DNA from: Acidobacteriota bacterium
GTDB taxonomy: Bacteria > Acidobacteriota > Holophagae > Acanthopleuribacterales > Acanthopleuribacteraceae
Direction: 5' to 3'
DNA length: 64,000 nucleotides
NCBI GenBank assembly: GCA_020439745.1
Contig: JAGQSC010000017.1
Coordinates: 62,001 to 126,000, forward strand
Part shown: positions 21,911 through 47,479 of the stretch, piece after piece
Layout of the letters: each line of letters starts with the position of its first letter
Position numbering within the stretch: the first letter of the stretch is position 1
Position numbers and translations under genes: made by a program
The notes under the pieces: generated by a model
What the model was told of the DNA's origin: nothing
Database searches by the model: none
Seen by the model: only the letters and a program-made list of their open reading frames with translations

Positions 21911-24103
21911 ATGCACAGATTGGTGTGGTTTTTTGTCGCGGCAGTTTTGAGTGTGGCTGGTGATTGGACCCATTGGCGTGGGCCTCAGCAGAATGGCTTT
22001 GCCAAAGCAGAATCTCTTCCCGAGACATGGTCGGCAGAGGGTGAGAACTTGTTGTGGAAAGCGCCTTACGGAACGCGATCGGCTCCGGTTGTCCATAATG
22101 GGCGTGTGTTCATGATCAACGCGGCTGGTGAGGGCGAGCGGCTCCAGGAACGCGTGGTCGCCCTCGATTTGGAAAGCGGAAAGTTAATTTGGGAACATCG
22201 TTTTAACGTTTTTCTGACTGATATTGTCGCTCACAGGTTGGGCTGGGCCAATCCCTGCGTGGATCCCGAGACCGGATATGTTTTTGCCCATGGCGTTCAA
22301 GGCCTATTCTTTTGTTTCGATCGCGATGGCAAGATCATCTGGCACCGCTCATTGACCGAAGAGTTTGGTCGCGTTTCGGGTTATGGTGGGCGGACCCATT
22401 CACCGATTGTGTATGGTGACCTTGTCATCGTCAGCTTCCTCAATTCAAGCTGGGGTCCTCAAGGCAAGGGCCTACATCGCTATTTGGCGATGAACAAGAA
22501 TACCGGTGAGGTCGTGTGGTGGACCGCTGCGGACGGAACGCCTTTGGATACGACCTATTCCACACCCGTCATTGCGACCATTCAAGGCGTGGACTTGTTG
22601 ATTGCTGGCGCTGCAGATGGAACCGTTCAGGCATTTAAGGCCGCTACAGGTGAACCTGTTTGGAAGTTTGTGCTTTCCAAGCGCGGACTCAATACCTCAG
22701 TTGTCGTGATGGGTCACAACGTTTACGCCGCACATTCCGAAGAAAATATCGACACTTCGGTGATGGGGCGCTTGGTATGCATTGATGCAACTGGCAAAGG
22801 TGATGTGACTGCGACTCATGAACGCTGGCGTATTGACGGGTTGGGGGATGGCTACGCGTCTTTGGCGCTGGGTGACGGAATGTTGTTTGCCTGTGACAAC
22901 GCCGCCAATTTGTATGCGATTGACCCTGACAGTGGCCAGCAGTTCTGGCAATTTAATTATGGCAACGCGGCCAAAGGCTCCCCGGTTTACGGTGACGGAA
23001 AGATTTACGTAGGCGAGGAAGCCGGAAAGTGGCACGTGCTTCAAGTCGACAAAAAGGGTTGCCGAGAATTGGATAACGATGCTTTTCACCTTGAAAACGG
23101 TGCACCGATCGAAATACACGCATCTCCTGCCATCGTGGACGGTCGCGTGTTACTACCGAACCGAACCGAACTGTTTTGCATCGGAAAGGGCAAAAAACAA
23201 GAAAGTGAAACCATGCCTTCGCTGGTAAGCAAAGGTGAAGTGGGACCGCCCACGCATTTGCAAGTGGTTCCTGCTGAAACTGTGCTTTCGGTGGGCGAGA
23301 AGCAAACATTCCATGCGCGCCAATTTGATGCGAATGGCCATTTGATAGGAGAAGTAGATGCGACTTGGTCCGTCAAAGGTCTTCCAGGTAGTGTCGAAGC
23401 AGGCGCGTATACGGCCACTGGCGGTATGTCTGCCGGTATGGTGATAGCCAAAGTGGGTGAGATGAGCGCTGAGGCCCGAGTTCGAGTGGTTCCGGCACTT
23501 CCATATCATCAGGACTTTGAGAGCTTACCCGTGGATGGGAATCCGTCTGGGTGGATCACGTCCAAAATGAAGACTGCGGTCACGGACGTTAACGGCAATA
23601 AGGTCTTGCGGAAGCTAGCCGATAAACCCGACCCAAAGTTCGCTCGGCTGCGTTCCTACATCATGCCACCCATACCCGGCAACTACACCGTGCAAGCCGA
23701 TATGAGCGGCGCCAAGAAAAAGCGTTTTTATCCCGATATGGGGTTGATTCATTCGGGCTACATGTTGATTTTGATGGGCACGACGCGATCACCTGTCGTG
23801 AGATTGGTGACCTGGGACCCCATACCGAGACTACAGGTTGATGTGCCTTTCGACTGGAAACCTGACATGTGGTATACCGCCAAGCTTTCAATTGACCATC
23901 ATGCAGACGGAACCGCAACGGTTCACGGCAAGGTTTGGCCTCAAGGTGAAGCGGAACCGGAGGCATGGACCGTCGAAATGACCGACCCCATTGCAAGGGC
24001 CGACGGAAGTCCTGGCCTTTATGCCTACTCGGTAGGTATTTCGGAAAATTCACCTGGAACCGAAGTGTTCTTTGACAACGTGAAAGTGTTTCAGAATCCA
24101 TGA
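21911..24103 (+). CDS. Secreted PQQ-type beta-propeller with C-terminal jelly-roll domain
   Basis: A 730-residue protein with a signal peptide (MHRLVWFFVAAVLSVAG). Residues ~18-430 form a PQQ-like (BamB/quinoprotein-like) propeller with repeats such as DWTHWRGPQQNGFAKAESLP, RVVALDLESGKLIWEHRF, AFKAATGEPVWKFVL, LYAIDPDSGQQFWQF. From ~460 an Ig-like domain follows (VVPAETVLSVGEKQTFHARQFD), and from ~535 a LamG-like region (YHQDFESLPVDGNPSGWI ... GLYAYSVGISENSPGTEVFFDNVKVF). The Trp-docking positions of the propeller are kept, but no quinone-binding Cys pair or catalytic Asp of alcohol dehydrogenases is clear, so it is likely a binding or scaffold protein. It is followed at 12 bp by a second, shorter propeller. 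Confidence 0.85.
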   Translation: MHRLVWFFVAAVLSVAGDWTHWRGPQQNGFAKAESLPETWSAEGENLLWKAPYGTRSAPVVHNGRVFMINAAGEGERLQERVVALDLESGKLIWEHRFNVFLTDIVAHRLGWANPCVDPETGYVFAHGVQGLFFCFDRDGKIIWHRSLTEEFGRVSGYGGRTHSPIVYGDLVIVSFLNSSWGPQGKGLHRYLAMNKNTGEVVWWTAADGTPLDTTYSTPVIATIQGVDLLIAGAADGTVQAFKAATGEPVWKFVLSKRGLNTSVVVMGHNVYAAHSEENIDTSVMGRLVCIDATGKGDVTATHERWRIDGLGDGYASLALGDGMLFACDNAANLYAIDPDSGQQFWQFNYGNAAKGSPVYGDGKIYVGEEAGKWHVLQVDKKGCRELDNDAFHLENGAPIEIHASPAIVDGRVLLPNRTELFCIGKGKKQESETMPSLVSKGEVGPPTHLQVVPAETVLSVGEKQTFHARQFDANGHLIGEVDATWSVKGLPGSVEAGAYTATGGMSAGMVIAKVGEMSAEARVRVVPALPYHQDFESLPVDGNPSGWITSKMKTAVTDVNGNKVLRKLADKPDPKFARLRSYIMPPIPGNYTVQADMSGAKKKRFYPDMGLIHSGYMLILMGTTRSPVVRLVTWDPIPRLQVDVPFDWKPDMWYTAKLSIDHHADGTATVHGKVWPQGEAEPEAWTVEMTDPIARADGSPGLYAYSVGISENSPGTEVFFDNVKVFQNP

Positions 24104-44403: not shown

Positions 44404-45036
44404 ATGGATAGCGGCATTTACGTCTCAAAGAAATTGATTTTCCAACTAATCGTGGCATCGATTGTAGTCAACGTCTTGTTCTTACTGTTGGGTATGGTCA
44501 TCGGTAAGGATGATGGCAAGTGGCAGGCTCCAGTGGAAGAGGTTGCAGCAACGGATCAACCTCAAGACGATGATGCGCCCAACCCAATCGAGATGGAGAT
44601 GACCATTTTCGAGCGTGACCGTGAAGCCGAACGAGCCAAACCCATTGATGTGGCCTACCTGGACGACAAGAAACCTGACACGACCACGACCACAGCGAGT
44701 CAAGATCCCGCCAAAGAGCAGGCGCCAGAGCCCGTGGTTGAACGCACAAAACCGGATCCAAAACCTCCGGTTACCCAGGCTACGGACGGACCCATAGGGT
44801 CAACAGGTGGAAGTTATTTCATCCAAGTTGTGGCTTCCAAGGACCGAGCCAAGATTGAACCGCTTCGTGAGCAACTGGCGAAGTTGGGTTATCGCGTGTT
44901 CCTGGACCAGGAAAGTGACTGGACACGGCTCTTGGTCGGTTATTTTCCCGACCACACCTCAGCGACCAAAGAAAAAGGCAAAATCGACAGGGCACTGTCG
45001 GCTGCCAAAGTGAACTGCTGGGTGCGTAGCCGCTGA
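44404..45036 (+). CDS. SPOR-domain membrane protein
   Basis: A 210-residue protein: one N-terminal membrane helix (LIFQLIVASIVVNVLFLLLGMVIG), a disordered Pro/Thr/Asp-rich linker of about 90 residues (DTTTTTASQDPAKEQAPEP), and a C-terminal SPOR domain (GGSYFIQVVASKDRAKIEPLREQLAKLGYRVFL ... WTRLLVGYFPDHTSATKEKGKI). SPOR domains bind denuded peptidoglycan at division sites. Likely a FtsN/DedD-like envelope protein. TATAAT at 44367-44372 may serve as its -10 box. Confidence 0.87.
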   Translation: MDSGIYVSKKLIFQLIVASIVVNVLFLLLGMVIGKDDGKWQAPVEEVAATDQPQDDDAPNPIEMEMTIFERDREAERAKPIDVAYLDDKKPDTTTTTASQDPAKEQAPEPVVERTKPDPKPPVTQATDGPIGSTGGSYFIQVVASKDRAKIEPLREQLAKLGYRVFLDQESDWTRLLVGYFPDHTSATKEKGKIDRALSAAKVNCWVRSR

Positions 45037-45104: not shown

Positions 45105-45240
45105 ATAAATGCAGGGGGATTTTGGCCGAAGGCCAAGCCCTCAATAGCCTAGGGTCGAGATCTGCGAAGCAGATTGAAAACCCTAGGTCCAAAGCATTTA
45201 TGAGCCAAGCGCTGAAAGCGCGAAACTCATAGATTGCCAC
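45105..45240 (+). repeat. Hairpin-rich element, left copy
   Basis: Nested inverted repeats: ATAAATGC (45105-45112) with GCATTTAT (45194-45201) as outer stem; inside, TTGGCC-GAA-GGCCAA (45122-45136) and CCTAGGG (45148-45154) with CCCTAGG (45181-45187) enclosing ATCTGC-GAA-GCAGAT (45160-45174). Then TATGAG (45199-45204) with CTCATA (45226-45231) encloses GCGCT-GAA-AGCGC (45209-45221). All three tips have GAA loops. In single-stranded form it would fold into a multi-branched structure. It is not coding. Confidence 0.8.
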
Positions 45241-45299
45241 CCGGAGATGAATCGTTGGTGTTCATAGTTACCCCGGGCTTGGTGTGATGTTATTGGGAT

Positions 45300-45416
45300 G
45301 AGATTTGGCGTCGCGCTTACAGCGCTCGGACTATGCGACTCCATACCTAGGGTCCGGTTTGCTGCGCAAACCTTGACTCTGGGCTACTCAGGGATTGGCC
45401 CTTGGCCAAACAATGC
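45300..45416 (-). repeat. Hairpin-rich element, right copy in inverse orientation
   Basis: Read on the minus strand, 45416 back to 45300 follows the left copy block by block: TTGGCC hairpin (45395-45409), a TAGCC..AGTC link, a GTTTGC/GCAAAC hairpin (45356-45372) in place of the ATCTGC one, CCCTAGG (45346-45352), then the GCGCT/AGCGC hairpin (45313-45325). Base identity is partial but the order and spacing agree, and the stems keep pairing despite changed bases, which suggests selection on structure. The two copies face each other across ~60 bp that repeats TCATAG (45227 and 45262). Confidence 0.7.
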
Positions 45417-45658: not shown

Positions 45659-47479
45659 TTGAAGAGCTCCATTCAGTTGTCTTGGTTTTTTGTGACAGCT
45701 ATAGAAACTATTGCGGGAGGCTGGATTCCACATATCCCGCCACCTGAGTCTCCCTATGAAATGACACTGTCGCTGGTCAATGAGTCCGACACGACCCAAG
45801 TCTTTCATTTCTTTCCTTTTGATGAACAGGGTGTGGCCTTGACGTCATTTCAGATGGCCTTGGCGCCGCATACCTTTCAGACACAACCAGCTCATCCATT
45901 TTTTGAACCCATCACCAGCCATGTGCGCGTGGGCAGTACCAATGGCCAAGTCCTTTGGTCTTATGACCTTAAAGGCCGTGGTAAGGGCCAACCCCTGTTT
46001 CGACTGCACCCGGGGACTACGTACCGAGCCTTGACGGATTGGCGTCATGGGGTGGACGGTGCGTTTGGACTGTCGCTGGTCAATACATCAGATGAGTTGG
46101 CGATGGTCGACGTCCGCGTGATGTCTGCGGAAAAATCAGTCCAGCGCCTCGAGATTCAACCGCGTGCCAAGGCGCTAATACGGGATGAGCAGTTTGATGA
46201 CTATGATCAGGTCGTGATTGAGATTGAATCCAGCCAGAGATTAGCGATTACGGCGGCTCAGCGTTCCTGGTCAGGCGAAAACAGTCATTTCTTCCCGCGC
46301 GACCTACTTTTGGAACAGCAAATTCCGTCACAAGACCTGGTGGATATTCGTGACGGCGTCTTGAGACAGATGCTCCTCAGCTTACTGGACAATCAACCCG
46401 AAGATGGTCAGCTCACGCGATTCGAGATGGAGAAACTGGAATCACTTAATTGCGCAAAACGAGGGATTCGTTCACTTGAAGGGCTTCAGGCGGCCACGAA
46501 TCTGAAAGTACTGCATTGCGACCGCAATATCATCACGGATGCTCGGCCTATTGATGCGCTTTTGAATCTGGAATCGTTGGATCTTAGCGACAATCCAGTG
46601 ATTCACTTGCCTCGGTTGGCCGAGTCTCATGTTTTGTCGGTGCTGATTGCGAATCGCTTGGGCTTGACTGAATTTATCCCAGACTGGTACCAGCTTCCGT
46701 TGAAGGAACTGTCTCTAGTGAGGAACCAAATAGACGCCTTTGATTTTCAAGGGTTCACGGATATTGAGACGGTCAATTTGGAGCAAAACCCGGGCTTGCA
46801 GTTACTGTCGACAAACTTTCCACAGTCCTTGAGGTCGCTCGACTTGCGGTACTGCGGTCTGACAGAGAATGACTTCTCAAACTCGAGCATCGAAACGCTA
46901 GACCTGGGTGTTAACCCCGGTTTGTCCGGCAAACAACTCCTGTTACCGCAAACGCTCCACGTGCTCGAACTCGACTACTGCGGCATGGATTCGTTTTTTT
47001 ACGAGTTGCCCCAGCTCGAAACACTTGATTTGAGCGGTAATCAGATGCTGACAAGCCAGAACCTCTCGCTTCCTGAAACGTTGAGATCGCTTGAATTGCG
47101 AGCATGCGATGGAATCGTTCGGCTTGACCATCACTTGCCTCGTCTTTCAGCGCTAGATATTTCAGATTCGGACATCATCCTTTCACCAGCTCAATACGAA
47201 AGTTTGAAGGTGCTTAAGATGAACTATGCCAAACAGACGTCGTTTCCCATGCAAATCCAGTCCTTAGGCAACCTTGAGGAAGTCTATGCATCCCGCGGAA
47301 GACTCGAGAAATGTGACGCCCTACTTGCCCTCCCCAATCTCAAGATTGTGGACGTCGTGGGCAATTATCTGGGTGCGGATCAATGCACGGTGATCGAGAC
47401 GCTCATCAATCGGGGGGTCGAGGTTTCCTATCGATATCAGAACCACGAATATCTCAACTGCCCTGGAGGTACACCATGA
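45659..47479 (+). CDS. Secreted leucine-rich-repeat protein, LRR-A of the five-gene operon
   Basis: A 606-residue protein with TTG start at 45659 after GAGGAGGG. After a leader come two beta-sandwich-like segments (residues ~35-215: YEMTLSLVNESDTTQVFHFFPFDE ... FGLSLVNTSDELAMVDVRVMSAE), then an EF-hand-like loop (NQPEDGQLTRFE, ~244-255) with the usual GIRSLEGLQAATNL linker, then about 13 leucine-rich repeats (LKVLHCDRNIITDARPI; LESLDLSDNPVIHLPRL) and a capping segment VVGNYLGADQC...YRYQNHEYLNC. The LRR part is of the bacterial internalin-like type that binds proteins or glycans. Its stop overlaps the next gene. Confidence 0.85.
   Translation: MKSSIQLSWFFVTAIETIAGGWIPHIPPPESPYEMTLSLVNESDTTQVFHFFPFDEQGVALTSFQMALAPHTFQTQPAHPFFEPITSHVRVGSTNGQVLWSYDLKGRGKGQPLFRLHPGTTYRALTDWRHGVDGAFGLSLVNTSDELAMVDVRVMSAEKSVQRLEIQPRAKALIRDEQFDDYDQVVIEIESSQRLAITAAQRSWSGENSHFFPRDLLLEQQIPSQDLVDIRDGVLRQMLLSLLDNQPEDGQLTRFEMEKLESLNCAKRGIRSLEGLQAATNLKVLHCDRNIITDARPIDALLNLESLDLSDNPVIHLPRLAESHVLSVLIANRLGLTEFIPDWYQLPLKELSLVRNQIDAFDFQGFTDIETVNLEQNPGLQLLSTNFPQSLRSLDLRYCGLTENDFSNSSIETLDLGVNPGLSGKQLLLPQTLHVLELDYCGMDSFFYELPQLETLDLSGNQMLTSQNLSLPETLRSLELRACDGIVRLDHHLPRLSALDISDSDIILSPAQYESLKVLKMNYAKQTSFPMQIQSLGNLEEVYASRGRLEKCDALLALPNLKIVDVVGNYLGADQCTVIETLINRGVEVSYRYQNHEYLNCPGGTP

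Follow-up and report, generated by a model that had tools for sequence, protein, structure and literature searches.

What is the hairpin-dense DNA that lies between a SPOR-like gene, which ends at 45036, and an LRR gene, which starts at 45659? The window (the whole 64-kb stretch that we analyzed) comes from contig C60; the draft genome to which it belongs spans 5.1 Mb and is 97% complete. A first-pass annotation of this DNA proposed two facing copies of an element at this site, with the same order of hairpins in each half. Both claims hold, and the copies could be given tighter limits: 45119-45229 on the plus strand and 45305-45412 on the minus strand.

Two facing three-hairpin blocks

Each block is a unit of about 108 bp that consists of hairpin A (TTGGCC...GGCCAA), a long, CCTAGG-footed central hairpin with the AGCC..GGG foot motif, and hairpin C (GCGCT...AGCGC). 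Bit scores below are from R1, a covariance model that was built from the five copies of the window's family alone, with no information about transposases.

45119-45229, plus strand: left three-hairpin block, with A outermost and C innermost (125 bits; used in building R1)
45122-45136, plus strand: hairpin A of the left block, TTGGCC-GAA-GGCCAA
45147-45188, plus strand: central hairpin of the left block, with foot GCCTAGGGT...ACCCTAGGT (the AGCC..GGG motif) and inner stem ATCTGC-GAA-GCAGAT
45209-45221, plus strand: hairpin C of the left block, GCGCT-GAA-AGCGC
45230-45307, no strand: spacer of about 78 bp; in gene-bearing relatives, a transposase gene occupies this position
45305-45412, minus strand: right three-hairpin block, an inverted and diverged copy (98 bits; also among the copies from which R1 was built)
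45313-45325, minus strand: hairpin C of the right block
45345-45384, minus strand: central hairpin of the right block, with inner stem GGTTTGC-GCA-GCAAACC and two broken foot pairs (C.A and A.C)
45395-45409, minus strand: hairpin A of the right block, TTGGCC-AAG-GGCCAA

This is the layout of a REPIN: two palindromic units in inverse orientation, a short distance apart, with no gene between them. The local alignment of the left block to the reverse complement of the right block scored 56, while the maximum from 2,000 dinucleotide shuffles was 27. Elsewhere in the window, no score exceeded 28. R1 had a third match in the window (22848-22976, E = 0.93), which we attribute to chance: its fold is no better than those of shuffled sequences (z = -0.03).

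The inner stems differ between the copies (ATCTGC/GCAGAT on the left and GTTTGC/GCAAAC on the right), with two pairs changed on both sides and the pairing intact, as the annotation had described, but the right copy has two broken pairs in the foot of its central hairpin. Taken alone, two compensated pairs from a single left/right comparison are weak evidence. Stronger evidence comes from G001, another genome of the same family, where a related block occurs in seven dispersed copies. Across these copies, 12 of the 36 pairs have two-sided changes and 99.6% of the cells are paired; none of 500 shuffles reached this level. The annotation took the changed stems as the mark of selection on structure. 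Selection on the structure of these blocks is plausible, but palindrome-templated mutation, or templated repair in quasi-palindromes, can likewise maintain perfect stems, and covariation is therefore no proof of function by itself.

Copies within the genome and beyond

The annotation's suggestion of a search for further copies was borne out. The element is neither single-copy nor without covarying pairs, the outcome by which the annotation's reading would have failed. A DNA search identified three more window-type copies in the same genome, all of them on contig C43 (82-93% identity), and R1 added diverged copies on C33, C26, C10, C2, and C6. (The matches on C2 and C6 are weak, at 26 bits, although their layout is alike by eye.) These whole-genome copy numbers are lower bounds. 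The copies adjoin unrelated genes, in either orientation. The paired form of the exact window family was seen just once, and its remaining copies stand alone; a block of different sequence forms convergent pairs on C26 and C6, and its pair unit of about 215 bp is present in three copies at two unrelated places in the genome. In G004, which belongs to the same genus, the element is absent beside the syntenic gene; because the right flank is not syntenic in G004, this empty-site comparison gave no clean joint.

Several of these regions have a more complex makeup. After each window-type block on C43 (2720-2975, 4170-4400, and 8200-8550 in locus L008, which is C43:1-18000) comes a similarly oriented block that belongs to the C27 transposase family. 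The C27-family blocks have GCCC-GGGC side hairpins, and the result is composite arrays of two block families. A lone block in locus L008 (6034-6136) and the end of a G004 transposase element (L060, 1920-2060) are 75% similar. In G001, a tandem repeat of about 400 bp (tgccgccggtcgtttcggtttttt) lies inside a convergent block pair (L045, 1640-2010). A short repeat, gcttccagccggaggtgtcta, is found beside blocks at two unrelated sites in the window's genome (L029 near 1635, on the minus strand, and L030 near 1405). Two G001 loci, L051 and L052, resembled a recent duplication, but their 98% identity extends over the whole 3 kb, which indicates assembly redundancy or a segmental duplication; we counted them once.

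Pairs that lack a gene also occur in other genomes. In Terriglobus albidus, a block that adjoins a transposase gene is present in at least 53 copies. All 14 of its neighboring pairs are convergent, and in seven of them the gap is 78-83 bp (the gap in the window is 78 bp). When six of these pairs were aligned, homology began at the outer hairpin, and the spacer was far less conserved. Two Verrucomicrobium genomes have at least 41 block matches with 7 transposase genes (BvORR106) and at least 44 block matches with 6 transposase genes (BvORR034). Across the phylum of the window's genome, R1 matched 19 of 297 genomes, including the window's own. In other acidobacteria (27 loci), eight of the nine close pairs were convergent, and one block adjoins a transposase gene.

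Linkage to a subclass of Y1 transposases

The annotation also suggested looking for a REP-associated tyrosine transposase. The window's genome has six matches to Y1_Tnp. Three of these genes (L018, L019, and L020) have inverted hairpin blocks on both sides, which differ from the window's in sequence but are alike in layout; in this 97% complete draft, we did not find a transposase gene between window-type blocks. Two of the Y1 genes, L020 (C56:116296-116625) and L022 (C49:73489-73656), contain internal stops and are probably decayed copies. In G001, a Y1 match is followed after 27 bp by an R1 match, and both flanks of this Y1 gene are inverted blocks, with A outermost and C nearest the gene, which is the order in the window. 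Upstream of a transposase in G001 (L057, 1000-1280), a unit of about 70 bp that ends in the A hairpin is present in about four tandem copies.

The flanked Y1 proteins from the two genomes share the motifs DH.H, WQ.GY..FS.S, and Y...Q..HH. They fit the signature of TnpA_Y1 subclass 1.2 (DH[IV]H, WQ, and Y---Q--HH), to which we assign them by signature only. The link to a Y1 HUH transposase stands, but the signature is Y...Q..HH, which NCBIfam places with the IS200/IS605 transposases (NF033573, transpos_IS200), and not the Y...NP of REP-associated transposases; matches to NF047646 (REP_Tyr_transpos) were under the cut-off. Of 17 other Y1 genes from the window's family, most of which carry the Y...NP motif, 2 have inverted-repeat flanks.

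We then considered 80 loci with subclass-1.2-like Y1 genes, from GTDB genomes of many phyla; the flanks of 71 could be tested. R1 had 57 matches in the 80 loci (E ≤ 0.01), of which 44, from 31 loci, point inward and lie within 350 bp of the gene, a zone that makes up about 14% of the searched sequence. As in the window, A is outermost, and C is beside the gene. Inverted-repeat flanks were present at 53 of the 71 loci, as compared to 24 of 355 mismatched pairs of flanks. Direct repeats were present too, at 33 of the 71 loci, so the flanks are often arrays. The annotation had placed similar blocks in planctomycetes and related phyla, and this is supported: inverted flanks were found at 10 of 12 loci from Planctomycetota, 14 of 17 from Verrucomicrobiota, and 7 of 7 from Acidobacteriota. 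They are rarer in Bacteroidota (12 of 24).

Two descriptors gave a similar picture. The AGCC..GGG foot, a descriptor that was designed after related blocks had been seen and that was tested mostly on unseen loci, points inward in 29 of 71 upstream flanks and 31 of 71 downstream flanks, and outward in 5 and 3. The three-hairpin descriptor matched 48 of 142 flanks in the inward orientation, 5 in the outward orientation, and none after shuffling. It had 50 matches in 42.6 kb of flanks versus 4 in 159 kb of distal ends, and its single match in the whole window is the left block.

We considered whether the blocks might instead be sites for the host, such as gyrase sites, nucleoid-protein sites, or bidirectional terminators, next to which transposases sit or insert by chance. 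Host proteins bind REPs in other systems, and convergent hairpins could stop transcription from both sides. This explanation does not predict that the blocks on both sides of one subclass of transposase would face inward, with A outside and C inside, nor that the left and right flanks would match within a locus and rarely between loci, and we consider it unlikely. It is more doubtful still that the pair is a classical BIME, with GTAG REPs that are moved by a class-2 RAYT (Y...NP). The annotation's comparison to REP/BIME doublets does capture the inverted doublet, the dispersed intergenic copies, the covariation, and the link to a Y1 HUH transposase, but not the REP itself: the unit has three hairpins over about 108 bp rather than one palindrome of 20-40 nt, and the left block lacks a GTAG or GTGG foot (the right block has one GT[AG]G, which the left does not share). 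Both the signature of the linked proteins and the rarity of inverted flanks around the other Y1 genes of the family also argue against this. Just as improbable is an RNA element (a leader or a terminator complex) that controls the LRR operon downstream: the region does fold strongly as RNA (-141 kcal/mol, z = -9.8), but the inverted repeat by itself accounts for this fold, no Rfam family matched the region at its gathering score, and the copies are beside unrelated genes, in both orientations, in convergent pairs, and adjacent to transposases in many phyla. Finally, these are not integron attC sites, as the core sites (RYYYAAC and GTTRRRY) are absent.

Overall, we believe that the pair in the window represents the non-autonomous, REPIN-like ends of a subclass-1.2 Y1 transposase element, with a probability of roughly 80%, and that it would be mobilized in trans. 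In its complete form, the element would have two inverted three-hairpin blocks around a Y1 HUH transposase that has a single domain and belongs to the IS200-like subclass 1.2; in the window, a spacer of about 78 bp would have replaced the gene. During replication, the strand with the pair would become single-stranded, and the hairpins would fold. A Y1 transposase would bind the folded ends in a strand-specific manner, its catalytic tyrosine would cut next to the outer hairpins, and the unit would be moved or copied to other single-stranded intergenic sites. Blocks without a partner may be relics or partial copies. The architecture, the dispersal to unrelated sites, the convergent pairing, the inward linkage to the transposase gene, and the covariation are direct observations; the proposed recognition, cleavage, and transfer are modeled on what is known of the chemistry of IS200/IS605 and TnpA_REP (PMC8266576).

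These dispersed repeats probably have a recognizable source, as ends with the same three hairpins lie on both sides of a neglected kind of single-strand transposase across many bacteria. We also lean slightly toward a broader proposal: that subclass-1.2 Y1 proteins drive a large and previously unlinked superfamily of three-hairpin, REPIN-like elements, which would account for many of the hairpin-dense intergenic blocks in Acidobacteriota, Verrucomicrobiota, and Planctomycetota, and that each end is recognized via several hairpins, unlike the ends of the Y1 transposases that have been studied. Hairpin-dense intergenic repeats, which are common outside of Proteobacteria, would then gain both a source and a testable enzyme. 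With a fixed order of hairpins (A, central, C), a spacing of about 80 bp that recurs, and the AGCC..GGG foot, recognition of multi-hairpin ends is directly testable in a cultured strain, for instance Terriglobus albidus.

Comparison with known systems

The ends of IS200/IS605 elements are small subterminal hairpins. The elements described here share a transposase family and hairpin ends with them, but the ends are inverted three-hairpin blocks, and copies of the ends outnumber the gene-bearing copies. REPINs and their RAYTs, or REPtrons (PMC3116915; PMC2817692), also form gene-free inverted pairs of palindromes that are dispersed between genes, and their linked Y1 HUH transposase is likewise low in copy number and flanked by the same units. 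The differences are the three-hairpin unit of about 108 bp, the absence of the GTAG foot, and the transposase, which is IS200-like (Y...Q..HH) while RAYTs have Y...NP.

TIRYTs and TIRtrons, with their double palindromic TIRs (PMC3733652), resemble our elements in that the inverted repeats around the Y1 gene are long and in part palindromic, and some of them recur in the genome; Acidobacteria are included. Their TIR motif is different (GGGGWSAS). According to the classification of Quentin 2018 (PMC6006769), TIRYT proteins are mainly of subclass 2.1, with Y...NP and an HTH tail. The entry for class 3 in that classification includes Planctomycetes and Acidobacteria, mentions "several atypical secondary structures" beside the gene, and gives a high copy number (about 600 in Solibacter usitatus). 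The class 3 motifs (NHVH, W[TA], and Y----Q) set those proteins apart from the ones linked to our blocks; this separation is by protein motifs, and the DNA structures may overlap.

Searches of the open-access literature for PATEs and for Verrucomicrobia REPINs turned up no account of these blocks. The novelty of the association rests on this and on the table for subclass 1.2 (Quentin 2018, PMC6006769), which gives the signature DH[IV]H, WQ, and Y---Q--HH, places the proteins mostly in Cyanobacteria and Bacteroidetes, and lists them without REP structures and without IS properties. The protein signature is the same here, with one to seven diverged copies per genome, but the members from Acidobacteriota, Planctomycetota, and Verrucomicrobiota have inverted multi-hairpin ends and dispersed copies of them. 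For our sample, the 53 flanked loci among 71 contradict the published table. Rather than exclude these proteins from subclass 1.2, we take this as a revision of its description, so that the published view of subclass-1.2 Y1 proteins as lacking flanking structures would change.
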